From Candidatus Borrarchaeum weybense (GTDB taxonomy: Archaea; Asgardarchaeota; Sifarchaeia; Borrarchaeales; Borrarchaeaceae), in NCBI GenBank assembly GCA_019057385.1, contig JAHQJS010000005.1:62001-126000 (forward strand): a DNA stretch of 64,000 nucleotides, read 5' to 3'. The position numbers were made by a program, and so were the translations under genes. The notes under the pieces were generated by a model, which saw nothing but the letters and a program-made list of their open reading frames with translations, ran no database searches and had not been told where the DNA came from. Position 1 is the stretch's first letter, and the number at the start of each line of letters is the position of its first letter. Positions 18,114 through 64,000 of this stretch are shown piece after piece.

Positions 18114-18261
18114 TCGTTTCCCCTGCCTACTTCCTTTAACTTTATATAAAGACCACATTTTTTGTGAGAGTCCAAAAATTAGCTGAGTTTATCGAATGTA
18201 TTTAAGTTACAAATTTAAACCACATAATCCATTTTAGAGTGCATAACAAAAGGTGGAGTCT

Positions 18262-18411
18262 TTAACCTCTATTCTTCTCCTTAAGCCATAACTTGATCGC
18301 TTCTTCTATCGCTTTACTTTGATCGCCTTTTTTCCCACCTAGTCTCTTTGCTACTTCCACTCTGAATTCCTTTTCTAGCTCATCATCTATTACGAAGGAG
18401 ACTTTGCCCAT
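18262..18411 (-). CDS. Ribbon-helix-helix regulator
   Basis: A 49-residue protein: MGKVSFVIDDELEKEFRVEV, then AKRLGGKKGDQSKAIEEAIK and a basic end. This is a ribbon-helix-helix (MetJ/Arc) DNA-binding fold, with a beta strand, helix, GxxGDxSKAI turn and second helix. It is divergent from the Cas7-like gene. The 220 bases between them contain three copies of TATAGGAATAT, which probably are its operators. Likely a repressor of itself and of the CRISPR-derived module. Confidence 0.8.
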   Translation of the reverse strand: MGKVSFVIDDELEKEFRVEVAKRLGGKKGDQSKAIEEAIKLWLKEKNRG

Positions 18412-18431
18412 CTAATATCACCCGCACAATT

Positions 18432-18506
18432 TATAGGAATATCTACTTATATGATTAACGGTTATTATTGATATTCCTATATTCAGAAAAGTTTATATAG
18501 GAATAT
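18432..18506. promoter_or_regulatory. Three TATAGGAATAT operator-like sites
   Basis: Exact copies of TATAGGAATAT lie at 18432-18442 and 18496-18506, and in inverse orientation at 18471-18481. The last copy overlaps the TATA box GTTTATATAG of the Cas7-like gene, and the first lies 21 bases upstream of the RHH gene start. Multiple sites in both orientations in a divergent promoter fit binding of RHH dimers. Confidence 0.7.
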
Positions 18507-18629
18507 GACCTTATAAATAATGCCGACGAAAAAACTTGTCGCATAGAAAACGAATGCGGGTACAAAAATAGCGATTTTTTCCAAATATGATACATAAAAA
18601 ATCATCTCAAGTTAGGGGAGTCGTGTGGC

Positions 18630-19472
18630 ATGTCCAAAAAAATGTCTGACCGAGTTAAGAGGATACAAAATCCTCAGAGAATTCTAAAAGTGGTTGCTTA
18701 TACCGCAATCGCCAAACCGTTAAACGGTTCTCTTCCTAGAAGTAATAATTCGCATTTTTTGAGATTATATCCTATAAAGTATTCTTACAGGAATGGTAAA
18801 GAGGAAAAGGAAGCTTTCTCTATATCGTATTTACTTAAAGGGATTAGAGGAGCTATTAGGCATCAAGTGATGAAGACTTGTTATGATGCTGGTGTGGAGG
18901 TGTGCCACACTAGCGATAAAGCGACCGATAAAGCGGGCAACAGTCTTCTTCCTAAAGGTTTTCATCTTTCGGGTTCTTGTAAGGGCAATGGTGAATGCAT
19001 AGTTCATCAAGTTTTTGGATCTATGGGTACTGAAGGTTTAATTTCTGTCTACGCAGAGCCAATTACAGCAATTTCTCATAAATCGGCTAAAACTGAAGTT
19101 AAAGTTCAAAAAGTCCATATTGCCACTGAAAATCGTGTTTGCATGACTTTTGATAACAAACCTGTCCAAGACTTTGGCGAGCGGTATTTTTCCGGTGAAT
19201 TTACCTTTGAAATTGATGTTACGCGTTGTACAAGTGAACAAATTGGTTTATTGATTGAATCAGTTATTAACATGCAAAGACTAGGCAGAGGATACAATGC
19301 GGGATATGGTAGGGTTCAAATTAAGCGATTTCAATTATTAGAGCGCATAATAAAGAGGATTCCGGAGTGGCAAGAAGATAACTTCATTGTCAAAGAAGAA
19401 CTTAACGAAATTTCGTTAAAAAACGAGGTTGTAGAGGCGATGGAGGCTTGGAATGCTTACGTTAATACTTGA
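18630..19472 (+). CDS. Cas7-like RAMP protein (module 1)
   Basis: A 280-residue protein of the Cas7 group, most like the Csf2/Csm3 branch in outline. Features in order: the LLKGIRGAIRHQ segment at 68-79, which is like the conserved Cas7 basic helix; a Cys pair C117 and C123 leading into QVFGSMG, like the Zn/thumb and LFG region of Csm3; and a C-terminal Gly-rich loop GRGYNAGYGRV at 219-229. A paralogue sharing CHTS, VQKVHIA-ENR, YFSG and the Gly loop is at 57869. It overlaps the next gene by 20 bases. Probably coats a guide RNA; no CRISPR array is near. The leader from the TATA box is about 100 bases. Confidence 0.75.
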   Translation: MSKKMSDRVKRIQNPQRILKVVAYTAIAKPLNGSLPRSNNSHFLRLYPIKYSYRNGKEEKEAFSISYLLKGIRGAIRHQVMKTCYDAGVEVCHTSDKATDKAGNSLLPKGFHLSGSCKGNGECIVHQVFGSMGTEGLISVYAEPITAISHKSAKTEVKVQKVHIATENRVCMTFDNKPVQDFGERYFSGEFTFEIDVTRCTSEQIGLLIESVINMQRLGRGYNAGYGRVQIKRFQLLERIIKRIPEWQEDNFIVKEELNEISLKNEVVEAMEAWNAYVNT

Positions 19473-20274
19473 AGGTCAAATTGTAACTCCAATTGTCACT
19501 AGGAAAACTGAATTTTATATGGAAGGATGTAAAGCTATAATTAAGCATCCAAGAAGACGTTATTACAATAAAATTAATGCATCTAAGCCGATGTATCCCT
19601 ATTCATTTCAGTGCTATTTAGGAGCTATTGAATTACACTTTAGATGTTCAAATACTGCAAAACTAAAACAGAAATTAAAAGATTTGTTGCAGATTAAAGC
19701 GATAGGGCGCTTTCATAGTGAAGGGATGGGATTGGTCCAATGGATCAAGGGCACCATACATTCGAATTATGAGCCAACTCACACAAAAAATACACGAACA
19801 CTCCGAATTCGCAAAGGTCTTCCTCATAATTTAACAAAAGATACCAAGAAACTGTTATTGTATGCTTTGCTTCATGATTTTGTTAATACGCCTAAACATA
19901 AATCTAAAATTTACATAGAACCGAATCTAGACGGCATAGCGTATTTATGCAACCATCATGATAAAACAGAAGACAGTTTCATTCAGTTATTTCAGAAATA
20001 TGACCATCTAGCGGCCATGATTACAAGAAAGATAAGGTCACCCAGAACTAATAGGTATAACTGGTCTTCCAATAGCAATATTAATTTTGAAAAATTAGCA
20101 ACAGAGATAAAGGAGGTGGCATCCAACATTTGGAAGTTGTATGATTACATCTATCAGAGTAAAGAACTAGAGCAATTAAACGAAAGTTTACAACATGGCC
20201 ACACGTCATTAAGAAATCATTTACTGGTGATAGTCAATTTAATAGTGCATGATTTTCAAAGAAATGAACTTTGA
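19453..20274 (+). CDS. RAMP domain fused to an HD-like domain (module 1)
   Basis: A 273-residue protein with two parts. Residues 1-105 look like a Cas5/Cas6-type RAMP ending in the Gly-rich loop IGRFHSEGMGLVQW. Residues 130-260 are helical with HD-superfamily residues: LLHDF (H141, D142), NHH at 167-169 and YDHLAAMI (D184), arranged like the HD domain of Cas10 or Cas3''. The motif T-x-x-H-x-SKIY between them is shared with the paralogue at 56531. It likely contributes a nuclease or phosphodiesterase to the Cas7-like complex. The start overlaps the Cas7-like gene, so the two are translated together. Confidence 0.7.
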   Translation: MLTLILEGQIVTPIVTRKTEFYMEGCKAIIKHPRRRYYNKINASKPMYPYSFQCYLGAIELHFRCSNTAKLKQKLKDLLQIKAIGRFHSEGMGLVQWIKGTIHSNYEPTHTKNTRTLRIRKGLPHNLTKDTKKLLLYALLHDFVNTPKHKSKIYIEPNLDGIAYLCNHHDKTEDSFIQLFQKYDHLAAMITRKIRSPRTNRYNWSSNSNINFEKLATEIKEVASNIWKLYDYIYQSKELEQLNESLQHGHTSLRNHLLVIVNLIVHDFQRNEL

Positions 20275-20413
20275 AGGGTTTTGCACACCAAGGGACAGAT
20301 TGCCGTTGCCCTGCTAAATGTGAGCAGAAGGGCTTGATAGTAGGGCGTTAAAGGTTTCTGCTCTTTACCCCGCACCCAAAATATTATATTGGATTGGGGA
20401 TCCTTAAGGCACT
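20275..20413 (+). other. Possible structured RNA behind module 1
   Basis: About 110 unusually G+C-rich bases follow the module stop. CTGCT at 20311-20315 pairs with AGCAG at 20323-20327, extended by GCC/GGC after a bulge, and further GGC/ACCCCGC segments follow. No tRNA T-loop motif and no reading frame were found. The end contains the AT-rich promoter of the next gene. It could be a transcript end or a small RNA; evidence is only base pairing. Confidence 0.35.
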
Positions 20414-20902
20414 ATGACTGAAACAACTGAAAAGCCCTATTTAGACTATATTGATTTTGGACATGCAAGCCTCAAAAATTTCTTCGTTTTCCGAATTAGC
20501 AAAGGTGGTGACTTGTTCCGCTGTCTTGAAGCGAAATTAAAAGACGAAGGAATTAGATCAGGTTTAGTACTGTTCATGCTCGGGACGTTGAGAAACGCAC
20601 GTCTTGCTTATTTCAACACAAATATTGGCGAGTTTCACGTGAATGAATTCAATCCTCCTGGAGGTATTGAATGTGTTGCAGGGAGCGGTACTGTAAGCAT
20701 TCAAGAAGACGAAATGCTAGCACATATCCATGTGGTTGTTGCTGGTCCAACAGGAAATGCCTATGGCGGTCATATTTACCCCGGGAGTATTGTAAAAGAG
20801 TATATAGAAGGCGGCATAGTGATTTTAGAAGATATACGTATGGAACGAATTTATGATGAAAATGTTAAAGCTTTTCCTCTGAAGTTTTTCGATCCTGAAT
20901 GA
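20414..20902 (+). CDS. PPC/DUF296-domain protein
   Basis: A 162-residue protein of the PPC (DUF296) family. In plants and some prokaryotes this domain trimerises and is found with AT-hook DNA-binding segments; stand-alone copies are common in archaea. GGDLFRCLEAKLKDEGIRSG, the GTLRNARLAYFN strand and EDEMLAHIHVVVAG with GGHIYPGSI give the typical fold. The His cluster (HIH plus GGH) is the probable metal site. It has its own promoter and ends 36 bases from the convergent L10e gene. Confidence 0.8.
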   Translation: MTETTEKPYLDYIDFGHASLKNFFVFRISKGGDLFRCLEAKLKDEGIRSGLVLFMLGTLRNARLAYFNTNIGEFHVNEFNPPGGIECVAGSGTVSIQEDEMLAHIHVVVAGPTGNAYGGHIYPGSIVKEYIEGGIVILEDIRMERIYDENVKAFPLKFFDPE

Positions 20903-55705: not shown

Positions 55706-55952
55706 TCACCTCAAATTTTTTAGATTTCTATTTTTATTTTTCAAAAAAGTTGGAAACGAGGGGGTATCAATAGCTGTTGAAATAGTGGGCTACTGCCACC
55801 GCCAAGAATGCCAGGGATGCCAAGAAAAGTTTGAAAAGCTCAAAGCTAAGTCAATTAAAAATTCAGGAGTAAAATCTGTTGGAGTTTTATAAAAACCTTT
55901 TTCCGGGCAGGGTGGTTTAGCTTCAAGACTGAGAGAAAAGAAAAGACATTTT

Positions 55953-55988
55953 GTTAAAGCAAATCCCATTGGCGCAATCAAACCACCT
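55953..55988 (-). repeat. Short repeat d, copy 1
   Basis: GTTAAAGCAAATCCCATTGG followed by CGCAATCAAACCACC, similar to 57673-57709. In both cases it lies on the TrpB2-side flank of a large repeat copy (A and C), so it is probably part of the same duplicated unit. Confidence 0.65.
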
Positions 55989-56039
55989 AATCTGCCTATT
56001 TCTTTAGGCTTGTTATTTAAATCTTTCTCTGTTTTATTA

Positions 56040-56182
56040 CATTTTTCGTCCCCTGCGAGTCATCCATTCCCAACAATTGAGGCGTCGGACCTCTGAATTG
56101 GTTCAGTCTCATGCACAAGAACGTGTCCCACGTGATATACGAGGAACATACCGCCTTGTAACTCATGTATTCTCTTTCAAAG
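56040..56182 (-). repeat. Repeat copy C (~143 bp) of the system
   Basis: Longest repeat together with copy B, differing at only about ten positions. It holds, in minus orientation, ACGTG-GGA-CACGT, GTGCATGAGACTGAACC and the hairpin-forming GAGGTCCGACGCCTC. A TATA box GTTTATATAG lies about 10 bases upstream of its 5' edge, so it could be transcribed by itself. No gene is recognised in it, but a short open frame runs through. Confidence 0.8.
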
Positions 56183-56195
56183 ATTCTATATAAAC
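56183..56195 (-). promoter_or_regulatory. TATA box of repeat copy C
   Basis: On the minus strand GTTTATATAG stands just upstream of repeat C. The expected transcription start falls inside the first bases of the repeat. Confidence 0.5.
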
Positions 56196-56530
56196 ACCGC
56201 GATTCTGCTAAACCAACTTTTTCTTACCACTTTTCGATCCTGAAAGCAAAGCAGAGCTGAGTTTTCTACAGCTTATTTTTATCCCTCATTAAGTTGCTTC
56301 CTGAAAAAACGAATTTTTACTGCCACTCCTCTCGAAAACAATTTAACGTTGTCACTTCTGTCGATTTTGCATCGCTCCCCACCTTGAAGATTTCTTCCTG
56401 TTCGTCAAATTTAACTCATGATGTTCCGCTAGGAGCCGATACAAGTTGTAACGTGGCAATAAAAAGTTGCATTCGAGGCAACAAAATGTTGTTTTAACAG
56501 ATTCAATACAATGATCCATTCTTGTCATGT

Positions 56531-57343
56531 TCACAAACCACTATTCAAGTCGTCAAGATAGAGATTTACCATTAATAAGAGATGATTTTTCAAAGACGAA
56601 AACCCAAATTTTAACGCTTCGTTGATCTTATCAAGTGCTTGACATTTTCGAATAAAAGTATAAAGGGCATACGGGGAATATTGGCACTTTTCTATCTCTC
56701 TTTTTAATGCATCGAAATTTATCTTTTCTAGTTCAGTCACACGATAACGCGTGAACGCAGACCATCTAAATTTTCGAGAAATCATTGCAGAAAGTCTATC
56801 ATAATACTGAAGAAGAGGGAGAAGAGGCAATTCAGCCTCATCTGTATCATAGTTGTGGTGATTTTCCACAAACTTACGGACTTCTTCATCAAGTATATTA
56901 ACTTCAGAGTAGATTTTGCTCTGATGTCGATTAGTGTGTACGAAATCATGTAGTAACATAGCTATAACTAATGTTTCTTGCACGTTGGAGAGTTTAGGGA
57001 GTTTTTTACGGATCTTAATTGTTCTTGAAATATAGAGCGGATTTTTTTTGAGTTTACTAACAGAAGTCCATAAGATTTGCCCCATCCCTTCACATGTATA
57101 ACTCCCAACACTGTCAATGGCGAGCGCTTCTTCAAGTTTATATTCTGGAACGATGAACTCAACATTTCCATACCATGCCCTAAAGGTCATAGGCGCACGT
57201 CTTTGCCCTACAGTCAATTTTCCGAATACCCTAGGACGACCATTTATGGTCATCGCTCCAATATCGGCAATTCCAAAATGCCTGCGCCTTGAAACGATAG
57301 GAGTTTTTGTATAACCCATTAATTTAAAGTATTTTTGTGACAT
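56531..57343 (-). CDS. RAMP domain fused to an HD-like domain (module 2)
   Basis: A 270-residue paralogue of the protein at 19453. Residues 1-105 are RAMP-like with the Gly loop VGSYTCEGMGQILW at 79-92. The helical rest has LLHDF (H132, D133), T-x-x-H-QSKIY, NHH at 161-163 and YYDRLSAMISRK (D182), the set of residues seen in the HD nuclease part of Cas10 and Cas3. The ATG follows AGAGGGGATT, also found before the helicase-Cas1 gene. It lies between repeat copies B and C, not overlapping the Cas7-like gene as in module 1. Confidence 0.75.
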   Translation of the reverse strand: MSQKYFKLMGYTKTPIVSRRRHFGIADIGAMTINGRPRVFGKLTVGQRRAPMTFRAWYGNVEFIVPEYKLEEALAIDSVGSYTCEGMGQILWTSVSKLKKNPLYISRTIKIRKKLPKLSNVQETLVIAMLLHDFVHTNRHQSKIYSEVNILDEEVRKFVENHHNYDTDEAELPLLPLLQYYDRLSAMISRKFRWSAFTRYRVTELEKINFDALKREIEKCQYSPYALYTFIRKCQALDKINEALKFGFSSLKNHLLLMVNLYLDDLNSGL

Positions 57344-57365
57344 TTAATCCCCTCTTTTTAGGTCT

Positions 57366-57396
57366 TATCTCCTCTTGAAACAAAAGAGAGGAGATA
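57366..57396 (-). promoter_or_regulatory. Leader hairpin of the RAMP-HD gene
   Basis: TATCTCCTCT and AGAGGAGATA form a perfect ten-base inverted repeat with an 11-base loop, 23 bases before the RAMP-HD start and after its promoter, so it should be in the mRNA leader. It may control translation. Confidence 0.5.
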
Positions 57397-57399
57397 CAA

Positions 57400-57445
57400 A
57401 CCTTGCCAAAGTAAACGCTTTTGCAACTTTTATTAGTAAAGTGGG
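57400..57445 (-). promoter_or_regulatory. Shared upstream element of RAMP-HD gene
   Basis: About 46 bases nearly identical to 58729-58775 in front of the Cas7-like gene. The minus strand reads ACTAATAAAAGTTG, then AAAAGCGTTTAC, then AAGGTTTGTAT as the TATA region. It gives the gene its own promoter, coregulated with the Cas7-like one. Confidence 0.6.
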
Positions 57446-57450
57446 TATGA

Positions 57451-57594
57451 CATTTATCGTTCCTTGCGAGTCATCCTTCCCCAACAATTGAGGCGTCGGA
57501 CCTCTAAATTGGTTCAGTCTCATGCACAAGAACGTGTCCCACGTGATATACGAGGAACATACCGCCTTGTAACTCATGCATTCTCTTCCAAAGA
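57451..57594 (-). repeat. Repeat copy B (~144 bp) of the system
   Basis: Near-identical to copy C across its full length. A TATA-like ACTATATTAATAAT lies upstream on the minus strand. The 75 bases around GTATATCACGTGGGACACG are the same in both; differences gather near the 3' end. Confidence 0.8.
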
Positions 57595-57638
57595 GATACT
57601 ATTATTAATATAGTACACGTACAGGCGTCAAGAAGGAA

Positions 57639-57657
57639 GGAGAGGATTAACCTCTCC
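57639..57657. other. Perfect hairpin between repeat copies
   Basis: GGAGAGG and CCTCTCC flank a five-base loop. It lies after repeat A and repeat d on the minus strand and might end that transcript. Confidence 0.4.
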
Positions 57658-57672
57658 CTAAAGTAGGACGGT

Positions 57673-57709
57673 GTTAAAGCAACATCCGTTGGCGCAATCA
57701 AAACCGCCT
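57673..57709 (-). repeat. Short repeat d, copy 2
   Basis: GTTAAAGCAACATCCGTTGG followed by CGCAATCAAAACCGCC. It is the partner of 55953-55988. The spacing to the large repeat differs (13 bases here, 50 there). Confidence 0.65.
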
Positions 57710-57721
57710 GTATTTTGATGA

Positions 57722-57806
57722 CATTTTTCGTCCCCTGCGAGTCATCCTTCCCCAACAATTGAGGCGTCGGACCTCTAAATTGGTTCAGTCTCATGCACAT
57801 GAACGT
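57722..57806 (-). repeat. Repeat copy A (~85 bp, conserved core only)
   Basis: Shares the core of copies B and C from GGGACGAAAAATG to ACGTTCATGTGCATGAG but its 5' third is different. In place of the ACGTG-GGA-CACGT hairpin it has a longer one, TATCACT and AGTGATA at 57806-57829. This exchange of one hairpin for another at the same place suggests RNA structure is under selection. Confidence 0.75.
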
Positions 57807-57868
57807 ATCACTCACAAAAGTAAGTGATAGTCCGTTATGAGATGAGAAAAAAGAATGAGATGGAGTTA

Positions 57869-58687
57869 TCATGCAGTCACCGTTTCTTCGTTTTGTTCGT
57901 TTTGTTCGCTAAAATTCAAAGAATCCCTCCAATCCTCGATATTACTGAGAGAGATAGGTTTTTCAGTTGCTTTTTCGACAATTTTATAATTTCCTTTGTT
58001 ATCTTCCGCGACATTGCGAGTAGTTTCGATCTTCTGGAGGTCGAAATTGAAAATCGTGACGCGACCATAACCACTCGCTCGTCCTGCGCCCAGAATCTCA
58101 ACATATAATAGCGATTCCATGAGAAACTTGATTTCTGTATTCGTTAATTTGGTCACATCAATGTAAAAACTGAAATAGCCGCTGAAATAACTCTCCCTAA
58201 AATCTTGGATAGCTATACCATCATAGGTGAGCGCAATTCTGTTTTCACTAGCGATATGGACTTTTTGGACTGGAACTTCAGTTAAGTATTCTTTATGTTT
58301 GATTGAGGCAATAGGATCTGCTAACACATTAATAGAAGATTTCTCGCCAAATGCACCAAAGATTTTTCGCAGAATGCAGGGAGGATCACATGTACCAAGT
58401 GCATGAAAACCAGAAGGGATGAGTCCAGTGCCATCTTTGAATGTCTCCTTTTCACTGGTATGACATACCTCGATACCGCACTCCTGAGCGAGCGCCATAC
58501 AGGCATGTCTTAGCATCCCTCGAATACCTTTGATATAATAGAATTTAGTGTTGAAGGTTTTGTCTCCATTCACATACGGAAGTTCTCCTAACAAAAGCAT
58601 GGTCGAATTTTTTTGAATCGAGGCATTAAGAGGCTTAGCAATAGGGGTAAAAGCATGAACCACTAACTGTTTTTTGATTTTTCTCAT
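57869..58687 (-). CDS. Cas7-like RAMP protein (module 2)
   Basis: A 272-residue paralogue of the protein at 18630 (Cas7/Csf2/Csm3-like). YIKGIRGMLRHACM at 51-64 is the basic helix, C100 and C104 lead into IFGAFGEK, and the C-terminal Gly loop ILGAGRASGYGRVTIF is at 198-213. Shared words with module 1 include GIEVCHTSEK, PVQKVHIASENR and ESYFSGYFSF. The last 45 residues are polar and Asn/Glu-rich. Own promoter TATATAGG near 58720. The likely role is binding a guide RNA along its length. Confidence 0.78.
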   Translation of the reverse strand: MRKIKKQLVVHAFTPIAKPLNASIQKNSTMLLLGELPYVNGDKTFNTKFYYIKGIRGMLRHACMALAQECGIEVCHTSEKETFKDGTGLIPSGFHALGTCDPPCILRKIFGAFGEKSSINVLADPIASIKHKEYLTEVPVQKVHIASENRIALTYDGIAIQDFRESYFSGYFSFYIDVTKLTNTEIKFLMESLLYVEILGAGRASGYGRVTIFNFDLQKIETTRNVAEDNKGNYKIVEKATEKPISLSNIEDWRDSLNFSEQNEQNEETVTA

Positions 58688-59033
58688 GTTTCTAACCTCA
58701 ATTATAGTTAGTACAAGTACCTATATAAACCTTGCTCAAAATAAACACTTTTCCAACTTTTATTAGTAAATTGGGGAATTAATTGACTTCCTTCTGAGAA
58801 AATAAGTATTTTAAACGGCTTTTAGCAAAAAAATCATTAAAAAAGTAGAACCCCCTTTATAAATAACAACGTATTGAGACGATTTGTATTATTGTCTTTT
58901 TAAAAGAATAGTTGAACAATTTAACAAAATGAAACATTCTTGAAGATTCAAAAGGAATAAATTTATGGTCTCAACTGAACTAACACACGTTTTTAAAAGA
59001 ATATGTATACTATAACTGATTCTTAATTAAGTA
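58688..59033. other. Intergenic region with promoter of the Cas7-like gene
   Basis: Nearest the gene lies TATA box TTTATATAGG (58718-58728, minus strand), then the element 58729-58775 shared with the RAMP-HD gene. The rest is AT-rich and silent. Confidence 0.5.
58729..58775 (-). promoter_or_regulatory. Shared upstream element of the Cas7-like gene
   Basis: Nearly the same 46 bases as at 57400-57445: minus strand ACTAATAAAAGTTG, then AAAAGTGTTTATTTT, next to the TATA box. The same regulator should act at both genes. Confidence 0.6.
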
Positions 59034-62000
59034 TTAGGGTAAAAGATCCTTTACAGCAACTGGAGGACCTTTTTTCGGTGGTTTATAGATGCCTTCCAGA
59101 TGTTGAAACCGCTCATACATCAAGTGGAGAGTTTCCTTATCTGGAGCGTAGATAAAGGGGACAAAGCGCTTTTTTTCCAACAAAAAACCCTTGAGTTGTA
59201 GTGCGCACCGCCTTATAGCTTCCTTTACTGTCATATATTCTTCTAGATAGTATACCTTTTGAGCGAGTATGTTGTTAACCAATCTCTCAACTTTGTAGTG
59301 TCCATTCCAGTTAAGATGATAGAATCGTTCACGCTCTAGTGTTTTACGTCGAATGAAATCAGTTTTCGCAAATTTATCATGTATACATGCAAAGATGAAG
59401 GCGAACCTGAACAGGGGAAGAAACACCTCTCGGAAGTCAACAACAGTGCCAAGAAAAGATCTTTGTTTTTTCTTATAATGCAATATCAGTTCGTTGGGTA
59501 CCCAGGAGAACCCTGCCTCAGCGAGTGCTTTTCGACAGTAAAAGTTAAGGTGTCGATAGACAGCATTGAGTGCAGCACTAAAGGGAGTTCGCGCCTTTGC
59601 TTCCCCCAGAAGCACCACTGTGGCAATATAGCGGTCGAGGGTACGACTGATGATTTCAAAATAACTGCCCTGAAGCAAATGCTTGGGAACCTCCCAGGCA
59701 ATGCTTTCCACTACGCCTTCAAGACCGCGAAGGTTGTCAATATTGCCCCGCCAATAGAGAAACGTATACGCCACGCGATCCAGTAGTTGGGATAAGAATT
59801 CCTGTGCCTCTGCAGGAGATAATAATCCCTCTTTTTCAAAATGGAGAATTGCATTGGCGAGTCCCATATTTTTACTCATCACCAGCAACCTCGCTAATAA
59901 CTTGCCTCGTTCCGTCTCTCTGAGTTGCTGGGCGGCGTGTTTCAGTTCATCGGCTAATTGTTGTTTCTCGGGTGTCAGTGTATGCTCTACAAAGAATCTG
60001 CCTTCGGGCGAATTAATATCAATGAGTTTTTTACCATAGTTCTTACGAACCTGTTGCGTAACTTCTCCACCCTCGATGATGATGTGACGGATAGCACCGA
60101 TTAAATATCGCTGTGTTGTTTTCCCGTCCTTTAAGGAATGAGTAAATCGTTTTTTCTTAATATCAAGCTGTTCACCGCACTTGACACGGATGATTCGTTT
60201 TGGTCGTCGAATGTAAACCCTTGTTTTTTTAACCCGCGGGACATAATTTCCAGCCTTGCCTAAAAGCAATTCCAACCCTTTTAACATCAAACCTCGGCGG
60301 CCTGGTTTCACCACTAGGTCACCTTTCATGGTTAAATAATAGCGGGAATTGCATTCAGGACAGACGGTGTATTCGTTATAGCGTGACGGCAGTTCCACTG
60401 TACCGTCGGAGTTGCAGAAGTAGCATGGAGTATCATCAAGTGTTTCTTGTAAGACACGAATTGTGCGCTTTTTTAACTTCCGCGCTTTCGTATGATATTC
60501 GCAGGCACCCATCTTTGGTGCGACATAAGACTTTCTTGCTCGCCTTCCAACTTTTGTGTTATACTTACGATTCAACACGCAAATATGTGCACGTTTCGAT
60601 CTGCGACGGTCCTTCATGGAGTTTATCCGAAAGAAGCCACATGAGCCACAGGTGAGGCGCAGATGTTCAGGAAGACTCACATTCACATCTGCCACATAGA
60701 TTTTGGGGCGACCTCGTAACTGCCCTTGAGAGATAAACTGGATTTTTCCCTGGATTCCTAACCGCTTGACATGTTTAACTACCGTGGTGTAGTGAACTGG
60801 TCTTTTATATTGCTTACGAACTTTTGTCGTAATTTGTTTATAAGAAATAAGTTTATACTGTTTAATAAAGGTGTAGATTGCTTCCTGAAGTCCTGGATAT
60901 GGTTTCGGTCTATGTTTTGGATACCAGCGTCTCCTTCTGCCTTTGTTCCCTCTTTCAACTTCAGGCTCTTTGTATTCAGGATTTAGTTTTGAGGTAAGTT
61001 CTTTAGCAACCCTTGCCGCCCTCGGGTCGCTGCGCCCCAGATAGTCATAACTTGCTTCTGCGATCCATGACGCCGTCTTTCTATGTGCTTCTGCATCACC
61101 CGGTCTTATGTTTACCCGAGTTGCCGCTTCTGTGACTGAAGAACCCTGACTGAGTAACCATACGAAAGAGGTATATTGTTGGGTGGTGTATCGTGTGGTG
61201 CTGCTCACTTCATGCATGCTTCGCCCGATTAGTGTAATCACGTGCCGGGAGAATTCCCGTTCTGAGGAGCAGTGATGTGTGGCAAAAAAATTCTTGATCC
61301 TGATGGCGGTTTTAGTCGGCAGTAAAAATTGGCTGGCCCAGCGTCCTTTGGCTGTTGCACTAAACTTTCCACCATTTCTTTTGATAAAACCTTCCTTGAT
61401 AAGTGTGTGAAGGATTCCCTCTCTTTTTTTCTTCGGTTCATCCTGCTTAGGTCGAGCTAACAGTTTCTCTCTTAGTTGTTGTGTAAAGTCTTTCAACTGG
61501 TCGTGGGTGAATGGTGTCAACAGTAAGCGAAGCTCTCCATTTTTGATTCCGCGTGTAGTGGTGTTCTTCTTGACCCACATGAAGAATTTTCTCGTTACGC
61601 GTTTCAAGTCGAATGGGAGAGAGCCTTCGTGCGTTTCGCGCAATAAGGAGAGTAAATGAAGTTCGTTATTGAGCCAGCAAAGCTCCTCCTCATGAGTCAA
61701 GAGTGCGGTATTCATTAGTTCGGACCAATTCTGTAGCAACGCTTTGTGTTGATGCCAGAAGTAATGTCTTTCAAGTTTGAGGAGCAATTGTTTCGTGGAT
61801 ACCGAGCCTCTAGCTATCAGGGTGAGTACAATATCTGCCAAAGAAGAACGAGCTTGGCTTACTATACGATGTTCTTTGACTATCAATTGTCCTTCAACGA
61901 TTTGAATATCCTTTTGCTTCAAAATCTCTTGGTCGTCCCCCACGAAGATCAGATCGGCATAGCCCACCCGATGATGGCGCGGTCGTGCCGCCCTGCCGCT

Positions 62001-63125
62001 CAATTGTATCAACAGTTGAGAGCTGAACATTCCTGCATCGGCAATTATCACCCTTTTGATCGGAAAGTCCACCCCCTCTCCGTATTGAGTCGTTGATAAA
62101 AAGACCTGAAATTCACCCTTCTTAAGTTTTCTCATAGCTTTTTGTTGTTTCTCTTTACTGAGCCCAGCATGGCTGTAGCCAACGGTTAGATTGAGCCCAA
62201 AACTCTTTAGAAAGGTCTGCAATTCTTCAGCGCGTTGTTCAACCTGATTTCGTGTGTAGCAAAAGATATGCACGATTTTAGTCCGCTGATCATCGCCATA
62301 TGAGTGTAGTTCAAAGGTCTTTTTGATCAAGCGAGCGAACAGAAAGCGCTTTTTTCGTTCGATCTGCTCTATTGTGCTGCCTGAAACTCCAAAAGACGAT
62401 ACAATAAGTTTCGACCGCCGTTCTTTGGTATGGATAAGTTGAGCATCGAGCCAGCTTGCCAGTTCCTCAGCATTCCCCAAAGTAGCCGAGAGATAGATGA
62501 TGTGAGGACGAGGTCGCAACCACGCTTTCGCATTGACAATCGCGGTTTCTAGACACGTACCCCGCCCTTTGTTACCCAGATTATGCAGTTCATCGACTAC
62601 AATTAATCCTATCCTGTCTAAAAACGGATACTCGAAATGTTTGGCTAGCAGCCCATTGAAGGATTCGTAGGTGATGATGAGGATATCCGCAGTTTCAAGC
62701 TCTTCAGGAGACGGTCGGTTATCTCCGCTGACCCGGAGGATGGTGCAGATGTCGTGATACCACTCTTTGAACCTGTCATACATCTGATCGATCAGCCGTT
62801 TGGTCGGCTCAAGGATCACACAGCGCATCCCTTTTCCAAGGATGCGGGTGGACACTATTTGGGCGATCAAGGTTTTTCCAGAAGCGGTGGGAGTGTATAA
62901 CACTTTGTCATGTCTTTGCTTACCAGAAAAGCATGCCTCCCATTGAAAGTCATAGAGAAGTTTAATGTCAGCCTGTTCCAATTGTTGACGTATAAATTCG
63001 TAGTTTAACCCTCTTTTCGTCATTGTAAGGAACTGTCCCCTCAATCCCTGTGTCTCACTTATGATGGTTGAAAAGTTCTTTATAAAGAGGGCAAACCTTT
63101 GGATCACTGGCTTGATAACTGTCAC
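59034..63125 (-). CDS. Helicase-Cas1 fusion protein
   Basis: A 1363-residue protein of new architecture. Residues 55-400 are a Ski2/Hel308-type SF2 helicase: Walker A TPTASGKT (78-85), DELH (178-181), SAT (213-215), TTQYGEGVDFP (345-355), QLSGRAARPRHH (374-385). Residues 740-815 include a winged helix; C826, C829, C849 and C875 form one metal site and C901, C904, C922, C925 a zinc ribbon. Residues about 970-1330 are Cas1: beta domain with GEQLDIKKKRF and IRHIIIEGGEV, then LRGLEGVVES (E1136), PFSAALNAVYRHLNFYCRKA, LHYKKKQRSF (H1216) and TVVDFREVFLPL (D1230, E1233), and the family end KKRFVPFIY. All catalytic acids and the His are kept. GTG start 63125 behind GAGGGG; ATG 63023 is an alternative. 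The gene is visibly richer in G+C than its surroundings. Confidence 0.92.
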   Translation of the reverse strand: MTVIKPVIQRFALFIKNFSTIISETQGLRGQFLTMTKRGLNYEFIRQQLEQADIKLLYDFQWEACFSGKQRHDKVLYTPTASGKTLIAQIVSTRILGKGMRCVILEPTKRLIDQMYDRFKEWYHDICTILRVSGDNRPSPEELETADILIITYESFNGLLAKHFEYPFLDRIGLIVVDELHNLGNKGRGTCLETAIVNAKAWLRPRPHIIYLSATLGNAEELASWLDAQLIHTKERRSKLIVSSFGVSGSTIEQIERKKRFLFARLIKKTFELHSYGDDQRTKIVHIFCYTRNQVEQRAEELQTFLKSFGLNLTVGYSHAGLSKEKQQKAMRKLKKGEFQVFLSTTQYGEGVDFPIKRVIIADAGMFSSQLLIQLSGRAARPRHHRVGYADLIFVGDDQEILKQKDIQIVEGQLIVKEHRIVSQARSSLADIVLTLIARGSVSTKQLLLKLERHYFWHQHKALLQNWSELMNTALLTHEEELCWLNNELHLLSLLRETHEGSLPFDLKRVTRKFFMWVKKNTTTRGIKNGELRLLLTPFTHDQLKDFTQQLREKLLARPKQDEPKKKREGILHTLIKEGFIKRNGGKFSATAKGRWASQFLLPTKTAIRIKNFFATHHCSSEREFSRHVITLIGRSMHEVSSTTRYTTQQYTSFVWLLSQGSSVTEAATRVNIRPGDAEAHRKTASWIAEASYDYLGRSDPRAARVAKELTSKLNPEYKEPEVERGNKGRRRRWYPKHRPKPYPGLQEAIYTFIKQYKLISYKQITTKVRKQYKRPVHYTTVVKHVKRLGIQGKIQFISQGQLRGRPKIYVADVNVSLPEHLRLTCGSCGFFRINSMKDRRRSKRAHICVLNRKYNTKVGRRARKSYVAPKMGACEYHTKARKLKKRTIRVLQETLDDTPCYFCNSDGTVELPSRYNEYTVCPECNSRYYLTMKGDLVVKPGRRGLMLKGLELLLGKAGNYVPRVKKTRVYIRRPKRIIRVKCGEQLDIKKKRFTHSLKDGKTTQRYLIGAIRHIIIEGGEVTQQVRKNYGKKLIDINSPEGRFFVEHTLTPEKQQLADELKHAAQQLRETERGKLLARLLVMSKNMGLANAILHFEKEGLLSPAEAQEFLSQLLDRVAYTFLYWRGNIDNLRGLEGVVESIAWEVPKHLLQGSYFEIISRTLDRYIATVVLLGEAKARTPFSAALNAVYRHLNFYCRKALAEAGFSWVPNELILHYKKKQRSFLGTVVDFREVFLPLFRFAFIFACIHDKFAKTDFIRRKTLERERFYHLNWNGHYKVERLVNNILAQKVYYLEEYMTVKEAIRRCALQLKGFLLEKKRFVPFIYAPDKETLHLMYERFQHLEGIYKPPKKGPPVAVKDLLP

Positions 63126-63176
63126 AAAATCCCCTCTTTATAAATTAATTATAACCTATTGACAGTAGTGGCAACA

Positions 63177-64000
63177 ATGTCTTTCGAAGAACACCTTAAG
63201 CAAGGAAATGAGTTTTATGAACAGAAACAATACCGAAGGGCGTTAAAACATCTCACAAAGGCTGCAAAATTAAAACCAAAAGACTATCAACCTTGGCAGA
63301 AATGTGGAGATATTTATTTTACTTTGCACATCTATCAGAAGGCAATCAAATGTTGGAAAAAGGCGTTTGCGAAAAAACCTGACGAAATGTCACCCTTGGT
63401 CGGCATAGCTAATTCATACGGATTCTTGGGCGAATACGAAAAAGCCATCAAATACTGTCAAAAGATATTGAATACACAACCAAACTTTCCTTTAATTAAA
63501 CTCTTGATGAGCAATATAAAAGATGTACAAGAACATTCACCTCTTACCGATGAAGAGGTAGCAAAAATAAAAGAAGCAGATTCAAAAAAGGTCATCACAA
63601 GTGTCGTAATCCGTGGTATAGACTATTATGTTATTAATAACACATTAAAACTTCGCGATCTAAATATCAAAGATATTAAACACATCAAAGGATTGGAAAA
63701 TCTTACCAATCTCCAAGAACTTGATCTAAGCGGGAATAAAATATCAGTAATTGAGGGATTAGACACACTTTGCAATCTTCAAGAACTTAATTTAAGTGCG
63801 AATAAAATTACTATGATACAAGGTTTAGATACCCTTACCAAGTTACAAGTTTTAGAACTTTACGACAACCAGATCAATAGGATAACTGGACTGGATAACC
63901 TTACGCAATTGAAAAAGTTATATCTTAATGGGAACTCGATAGAAACAATTGACGGAGTGGAACAACTCACGAATTTGGAAGTTTTAAGCCTTGCAGATAA
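63177..64000 (+). CDS. TPR-LRR protein (3' partial)
   Basis: At least 274 residues, open to the end of the window. The first 125 residues are three tetratricopeptide repeats (LKQGNEFYEQKQYRRALKHL, then WQKCGDIYFTLHIYQKAIKC and GIANSYGFLGEYEKAIKYCQ). From about residue 165 leucine-rich repeats of the 22-residue SDS22-like kind follow (LENLTNLQELDLSGNKISVI, LDTLCNLQELNLSANKITMI). Such repeat proteins mediate protein contacts and are common in Asgard genomes. It diverges from the helicase-Cas1 gene with only 51 bases between starts, so they could share regulation. Confidence 0.88.
   Translation, partial: MSFEEHLKQGNEFYEQKQYRRALKHLTKAAKLKPKDYQPWQKCGDIYFTLHIYQKAIKCWKKAFAKKPDEMSPLVGIANSYGFLGEYEKAIKYCQKILNTQPNFPLIKLLMSNIKDVQEHSPLTDEEVAKIKEADSKKVITSVVIRGIDYYVINNTLKLRDLNIKDIKHIKGLENLTNLQELDLSGNKISVIEGLDTLCNLQELNLSANKITMIQGLDTLTKLQVLELYDNQINRITGLDNLTQLKKLYLNGNSIETIDGVEQLTNLEVLSLAD

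Follow-up and report, generated by a model that had tools for sequence, protein, structure and literature searches.

The window analysed here, a stretch of 64,000 nt from Candidatus Borrarchaeum weybense (contig JAHQJS010000005.1, positions 62,001 to 126,000), carries a cassette of CRISPR-related genes and copies of a structured RNA. The cassette is a mobile element, and related copies of it have entered, or come to lie next to, a variety of host genes. With fair confidence, we read it as a homing element that has no array, is guided by an RNA and rescues the gene it invades, a reading for which we infer the steps of guide loading, cutting and homing. An earlier note on this DNA had described an unusual CRISPR-related gene set accompanied by three repeats. 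That observation is confirmed as real and larger than first reported, and the interpretation offered with it is partly supported, since it missed both the inserted element and the piece of host gene that follows the RNA.

The cassette, its empty sites and its RNA

The main element comprises the following parts:

55988..64000, continuing to about 66548 (G000:C5:128548) past the window end, minus strand: main mobile element, about 10.56 kb in total
55952..55988, minus strand: target-like site matched by the a1 spacer, beside the element, at the right junction
56034..56159, minus strand: RNA copy b, near the element's right end (covariance model R1, 141.9 bits)
56531..57343, minus strand: RAMP fused to a Cas10-type HD domain (RAMP-HD, or HDR)
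57445..57570, minus strand: RNA copy a2, upstream of the promoter-like stretch of RAMP-HD (R1, 141.2 bits)
57633..57658, minus strand: hairpin and T-rich tail, read by eye from the sequence as a terminator after the spacer
57670..57715, minus strand: spacer (presumed guide) immediately 3' of RNA a1, matching 55952-55988 at 32/38
57716..57840, minus strand: RNA copy a1 (R1, 124 bits)
57869..58687, minus strand: RAMP of Csm3/Cas7 fold
59034..63125, minus strand: helicase-Cas1 fusion, with Cys pairs between both parts
63159..64000, open reading frame (ORF) to 64124, plus strand: TPR-LRR cargo gene within the main element (Pfam TPR, LRR)

The main element is not present in the sister genome G003, where its flanks lie 11 nt apart (L158, 8978 / 8966). 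Comparison of 22 loci with sister genomes revealed 10 clean empty sites, defined by both flanks being found no more than 39 nt apart or overlapping by no more than 127 nt: ftsY, a PRC-barrel gene, an N6-methylase gene, the main and second window elements, L074, L084, L082, L081 and L059. At two more loci, pyrD (about 130 nt) and L085, 130-312 nt of host sequence were lost. The others showed gaps of hundreds of nt or a complex arrangement (5/22: L023, L075, L087, L025 and L031), could be read on one side (L061, L060), had no sister match (L062) or had no clean insertion (L080, L024). In ftsY, both G003 and G001 are contiguous where the window's own genome, G000, carries a 10.35-kb insert; the flanks overlap by 8 nt at the PRC-barrel empty site and are separated by 1 nt at the N6-methylase. 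Inserts of G001/G003 that G000 lacks are found at L074 (3 nt between flanks), L084 (2), L082 (25) and L081 (39). These empty sites bear out an alternative already raised in the earlier note, namely that the genes form a mobile unit.

Among the less simple loci, L023 has its left junction about 300 nt beyond the target, with the gene present twice and an element of about 28 kb, and at L024 the genome G003 has the RNA and a GIY-YIG gene but not the 6.1-kb protein genes. No insertion is seen at L080 against the sisters, so its RNA match of 25 bits may be false. Read by eye, the ends printed contain no common left-end sequence and no fixed target duplication.

The window holds a second, minimal element:

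18254..20413, plus strand: second element, with RAMP, RAMP-HD and RNA-like stretch, 2.16 kb
18630..19472, plus strand: RAMP of the second element, 42% identical
19453..20274, plus strand: RAMP-HD of the second element
20290..20407, plus strand: divergent RNA-like stretch, missed by R1

This element stops immediately ahead of the start codon (ATG) of a gene with a PCC domain (20414-20902, PF03479), and G003 is without it, with the flanks 11 nt apart there. It has room only for RAMP and RAMP-HD and contains no Cas1; because of this, RAMP, RAMP-HD and the RNA-like stretch look like the core of the element. Positions 20191-20407 match copy L176 of G002 (89% over 218 nt), beyond which the sequence is different and an ATG is close by. 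A stretch related to its RNA-like sequence also comes after RAMP-HD in G078, and a divergent one overlaps the end of RAMP-HD in G081, where at least L066, L067 and L069 show the GGTGATA-type end.

The Cas7-like RAMP named in the earlier note stands, as its fold matches the Csm3-type Cas7 backbone. The RAMP joined to an HD-like nuclease is likewise a true fusion, whose 270 aa consist only of a RAMP (3-108) and an HD domain (118-270), although the Cas10-like nature of the latter had gone unnoticed. No Cas10 polymerase/cyclase part occurs in RAMP-HD and the second element leaves no room for one, a statement that does not extend to the main-element cargo; Foldseek alone gave no RAMP-HD match with E < 0.001. 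The set of RAMP-HD sequences (A5) used 22 of 28 hits, leaving out six fragments. Of the 24 RAMP genes, 23 have a complete or partial RAMP-HD gene in their vicinity (the exception being L027), so that the gene set is conserved together, a point that the earlier note had left to be checked. As it had also stated, there is no ordinary repeat-spacer array, none being found in the 12 kb searched.

The adaptation-type enzyme claimed previously is the fusion at 59034..63125, in which the Cas1 part is joined to a Hel308/Ski2-like helicase. Residues E1136, H1216 and D1230, which we take to be those of the Cas1 active site, are kept in 8/8 sequences. For this set (A6), 12 of 13 hits were used, with the N-terminal half at L023 left out; two L098 hits are other helicases. 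The fusion occurs in only part of the element copies, and none was found within the stretch read at L025, L026, L027 and L028. The domains of the three core proteins include no RuvC nuclease of the TnpB/IscB type, and no Tn7 domain was found among the core proteins scanned (cargo ORFs lay outside the scan).

Other Cas1 proteins were also observed. Genome G081 has separate Cas1-like proteins near RAMP/RAMP-HD pairs (L071, 13313-15328, and L070, 2226-4319; 672 and 698 aa), with E-H-D kept in the former and D-H-D in the latter. A separate, ordinary Cas1 lies at G000:C4:153602-154474 (L034; open frame of 355 aa, 269.6 bits), and G000 may therefore also hold a normal CRISPR-Cas locus.

The three repeats belong to the system, as had been proposed, but are in fact unequally spaced copies of a structured RNA of about 125 nt situated at element ends. 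Alignments A1 and A2 used 22 of 23 copies (without L023 9257) and 21 of 22 (without L021a), respectively. In the 21 aligned copies, the consensus fold has five helices in which 97.3% of cells pair, dropping to 40-55% in slid controls, and two-sided changes occur in 35 cells against 11.0 expected, a value reached in 0/500 shuffles. About one fifth of the cells are G-U (107/546), and therefore the fold forms well from the cassette strand alone, the opposite strand pairing in only 77.7%. Tandem RNAs with 35-42 nt between them occur at L072 and L074, and both L062 and this window contain additional RNA-spacer units. A known RNA family was rejected, as no Rfam family reached gathering over the window and the only hit otherwise, to SgrS, had an E of 0.93 and lay below its cut-off. 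An ordinary riboswitch or leader was rejected as well: gene starts follow the RNA in 16 of the 92 copies counted (from a total of 94), against 12% at random positions.

Spacers, targets and altered gene ends

Host homology resumes 4 to 8 nt from the RNA 3' end in 8/22 loci (L082, L075, L084, L061, L081, L087, L074 and L025), where the RNA end forms the right edge of the element. At other loci, a piece of about 30-80 nt, here called a spacer, lies 3' of the RNA and is followed in many copies by a hairpin (by eye). We locally aligned the 3' flanks of 94 RNA copies to their own loci and took the 30 best alignments; nine were to cassette promoters, and the rest were to neighbouring genes and often mismatched at third codon positions. 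The alignment of L023b was not above shuffles and that of L028b barely so, and the one of L082 reflects a tandem gene pair.

Several spacers could be compared with both the uninvaded sister allele and their own restored allele, with identities of, respectively, 31/32 and 25/30 for the PRC-barrel gene, 36/38 and 33/40 for pyrD, 43/52 and 29/42 for the methylase, 27/28 and 19/20 for L059, 68/78 and 66/78 for L060, and 29/35 and 28/34 for ftsY. The uninvaded allele is clearly the better match in four of nine cases (PRC, pyrD, methylase and L059) and slightly so in L060, with ftsY even. When ten joined spacers were compared by BLAST with their own genome, the three best non-self matches were sites beside elements (E values of 6e-4 for pyrD, 0.004 for the window and 0.05 for ftsY). 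In ftsY and the PRC gene the left junction is exactly at the protospacer edge, where the spacers begin, and in pyrD 118 nt separate the protospacer from this junction. Spacers with a target are mostly in direct orientation.

A blind search of ten spacers without a clear local target against four whole genomes matched the L059 spacer, from G003, to G000:C5:164112-164139 (27/28, E 1.3e-5). The target is 11-44 nt from the orthologous empty site, at the end of what, by eye, reads as an aminotransferase gene. This spacer is antisense to its target and, therefore, cannot be left-over flank; L085, at a gene start, provides a second antisense case with weaker matches. In G003, the L062 spacer after the RNA at 2627-2751 agrees at 42/46 with the archaeal 16S rRNA gene of G000, whose 20-kb surroundings show no match to the L062 contig.

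The invaded genes ftsY, PRC-barrel, pyrD, methylase and aminotransferase remain complete, each having a changed end that lies at the protospacer or extends up to it. In ftsY, the left flank is the native start, cut exactly at the protospacer, and the right side leads from a diverged start (64-74% identical) back into native ftsY. The left side of the methylase keeps native codons 169-303, just short of the protospacer, and the invaded allele of L059 has an altered gene end on the left (native CTTGGCGA changed to TTGAATGA) and the native remainder on the right. Because the restored ends have diverged, nucleotide BLAST for direct repeats between the flanks was mostly too weak, with matches for ftsY, L023, the methylase and the window spacer; a protein search of the flanks again recovered the ftsY, methylase (codons 169-303) and L023 copies.

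Proposed mechanism and competing explanations

In the homing reading, the Csm3-like RAMP and RAMP-HD would form a small, type III-like complex on the structured RNA, which, with its short 3' piece of the invaded gene, would guide these proteins to the uninvaded allele. The suggestion in the earlier note that RNA made from the repeats could be bound by the Cas7-like protein agrees with such a complex. The Cas10-type HD domain would cut the DNA of this allele, and repair from the invaded copy would spread the element, that is, result in homing. The altered gene end would keep the host alive and hide the site from the guide, and helicase-Cas1, in part of the copies only, may serve the first insertion or the capture of new spacers. 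We lean, if only slightly, towards seeing here a natural archaeal 'cleave or home, and rescue' drive programmed by RNA, with a type III-derived RAMP/HD effector, a single-unit guide RNA, a guide-resistant altered gene end and a helicase-Cas1 that may capture spacers. Judging from the sequences, the candidate targets of such a drive would be ftsY, pyrD, the PRC-barrel gene, the N6-methylase and the aminotransferase, and one spacer fits 16S rRNA.

A number of observations weigh against homing and rescue. In simple insertions, the 'guide' is the flank itself, so the match there is geometric, and among the best 30 of 94 flanks nine RNAs located between RAMP and RAMP-HD are followed by a shared promoter-like stretch, not by a spacer. 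The window spacer fits its restored site (32/38) better than the sister allele (25/31), as does that of L085 (21/24 to its own allele and 23/32, below the best shuffle, to the native one), and L023 is too weak to judge (24/34 or 26/34, not above shuffles in one of two sister alleles). The other seven of the ten spacers in the own-genome BLAST had no match beside their element. In the blind search, L030, L062_2887, L072s1, L074s1 and L085 gave no other site with E < 0.2 in the four genomes, L062_1297 gave a weak match only (E 0.005), and L025b and L031 look like ordinary flank. Divergence at the protospacer exceeds that of the remaining gene only weakly (Fisher p of 0.035 for PRC, 0.05 for pyrD against G003 and 0.85 against G001, 0.16 for ftsY and 0.96 for the methylase). 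As for the RNA, its fold was derived from the same alignment that tested covariation. Of five structure measures, two exceed shuffles only mildly: pairs with a two-sided change, which number 8 against 5.8 (reached in 27/500) and of which seven are in helix 1, and further pair types (reached in 33/500). Additionally, genome G004 (80% complete) has 33 RNAs yet no RAMP match, its copies being either non-autonomous or accompanied by helpers that were missed, and G000 has a contamination of 7.08%. The changed ends may have originated by recoding or, equally, from a donor species, as the protospacer excess is weak and the whole methylase gene differs, not its protospacer alone.

Three other explanations were considered. 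We regard as unlikely an RNA-guided integration by helicase-Cas1, in which the RNA and RAMP complex would pick the site and Cas1 would join the element in a casposase-like manner. The E-H-D residues kept in all eight fusions agree with it, as do the left junctions of ftsY and PRC at the protospacer edge and the insertions of L074 and L084, precise to 3 and 2 nt; however, helicase-Cas1 is absent from the second window element and from the stretch read at L025 to L028, and the ends printed share neither a left end nor a fixed target duplication. That the RNA-like repeat is just the structured end of an ordinary transposon, with 3' pieces that are left-over target and have no guide function, seems to us distinctly improbable. 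Such a transposon would account for the flank in simple insertions, which follows from geometry, for the direct orientation of most targeted spacers and for the start of the ftsY and PRC spacers at the left junction. It would not account for the antisense spacers of L059 and, more weakly matched, L085, nor for spacers that stop after about 30-80 nt, often at a hairpin (by eye), with the gene restored beyond, and the L062 spacer fits 16S rRNA though the 20-kb surroundings of that gene do not match L062. Moreover, the partner proteins have Cas7 and Cas10-HD folds, and the G-U rich pairing fits an RNA.

We find it very improbable that the cassette is a non-programmable defence or regulatory unit of the ARAMP (Asgard RAMP) type, with the RNA as a cis leader for the cassette and neighbouring genes. 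Some RNA copies do end in a GGTGATA-like ribosome-binding site just ahead of a gene start, and the part of PMC8730458 consulted places ARAMP among CRISPR derivatives of enigmatic mechanism. Nevertheless, gene starts are hardly enriched after the RNA, as seen above, and the elements are gained and lost between sister genomes.

Known systems and relatives in other genomes

The homing element proposed here has likenesses to several known systems. In OMEGA, TnpB or IscB acts with the omega RNA of IS200/IS605-type elements, using the flanking target as guide and a RuvC nuclease. Common to both are a structured RNA at the element end and, as proposed for our cassette, the flank as guide and retention by targeting the empty site; the cassette differs in its Csm3-like RAMP and Cas10-type HD instead of RuvC, its separate spacers and the altered gene ends. 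CRISPR-associated transposons (CAST) with homing guides use Tn7 machinery and let an RNA select the conserved gene at which they insert. A similar choice is proposed here, but insertion is at or near the protospacer, not at a fixed distance, and genes are invaded and restored. Homing introns and inteins spread into the uninvaded allele with co-conversion of flanking coding sequence, which resembles the altered flanking coding sequence and the proposed spread of our element, whereas here an RNA would set the target, and the element is unspliced, with the gene restored alongside.

With casposons the cassette shares the condition of a mobile element with a Cas1-family enzyme that keeps E-H-D, although here Cas1 is fused to a helicase and lacking in part of the copies, targets vary per copy and no common ends are apparent by eye; a strict casposon was rejected on account of the ends read in this way. 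The type III (Csm) systems have in common with it a Csm3-fold subunit, a Cas10-type HD domain and the order of 5' scaffold to 3' guide; unlike them, the cassette has no Cas10 polymerase part and no array, and a structured RNA of about 125 nt replaces the short repeat.

According to the portions consulted of PMC8730458 and PMC12669027, citing Makarova et al. 2020, ARAMP are array-less, type III-derived Asgard RAMP systems, most of them with a distinct Cas1. The cassette proteins probably belong to this published group, to which they were matched by short descriptions, not gene by gene: Cas5/Cas7-like RAMP proteins occur here in Asgard archaea without an array, and the helicase-Cas1 present in part of the copies parallels the distinct Cas1 form. 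The descriptions of ARAMP in these same portions, unlike our cassette, mention no RNA, spacers, empty sites or gene rescue. Nor was any account of ARAMP RNA, spacers, mobility or empty sites, or gene rescue found in the titles and abstract openings searched, a scope that does not include the original 2020 paper. Because the literature searched gives ARAMP none of these features, we consider the system to be of a new kind, though not the proteins that make it up.

Known RNA-guided mobile elements employ single-protein nucleases (TnpB, IscB) or Tn7 machinery. If the homing reading is true, an element with several proteins of the RAMP and Cas10-HD kinds and a single-unit guide RNA would constitute a third route, which may lie close to the root of the class 1 CRISPR effectors or derive from them, and the enigmatic Asgard ARAMP proteins would gain a function. 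The altered gene ends would then represent nature's equivalent of the rescue drives that have been engineered, in the archaea nearest to eukaryotes. All this is directly testable, as the presumed guide, the target and the uninvaded alleles are all named.

Matches to RAMP were found in 4 of 99 genomes, including the window's own: G000 (4.18 Mb, 8 contigs) has 11, all of them open frames, G003 has 4, G078 2 and G081 7. A scan of genome contigs with a single RAMP protein gave 61 pattern matches, none of them a relative. With the covariance model (E 0.01, strict filters), the RNA was found in 5 of the 99 genomes, with 26 copies in G000, 8, 4 and 22 in three congeners and 33 in another genome within the class, and not in the other 94. 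A wider database contained 168 RAMP-HD relatives at E 1e-10; the best 120 of these include one functional name (sulfurtransferase-type, P0014), the other names being 'hypothetical'. Eighteen of the 20 listed relatives with an organism name are from Asgard groups, including Candidatus Borrarchaeum (69%), Heimdallarchaeota and Promethearchaeota, and two are from others.

In G081, four RAMP/RAMP-HD pairs (L066-L069) share the 170-kb contig C9, near 64, 98, 123 and 157 kb, and L065, on another contig, sits directly before the start of a gene that presumably encodes EF2. In the window, a 39-nt repeat (90%) is found upstream of the RAMP-HD (57407-57445) and RAMP (58737-58775) genes, and several cassettes repeat this promoter-like stretch at a distance of about 1.05 kb. 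A stretch of 538 bp is about 90% identical between two contigs (L024 10583-11120 and L033 2-539, in the order of the BLAST listing). Lastly, similar LRR-type repeat stretches occur near several elements (L024 14556-15756, L030 2095-3049 and window 63684-63791), and they are perhaps a recurrent cargo.

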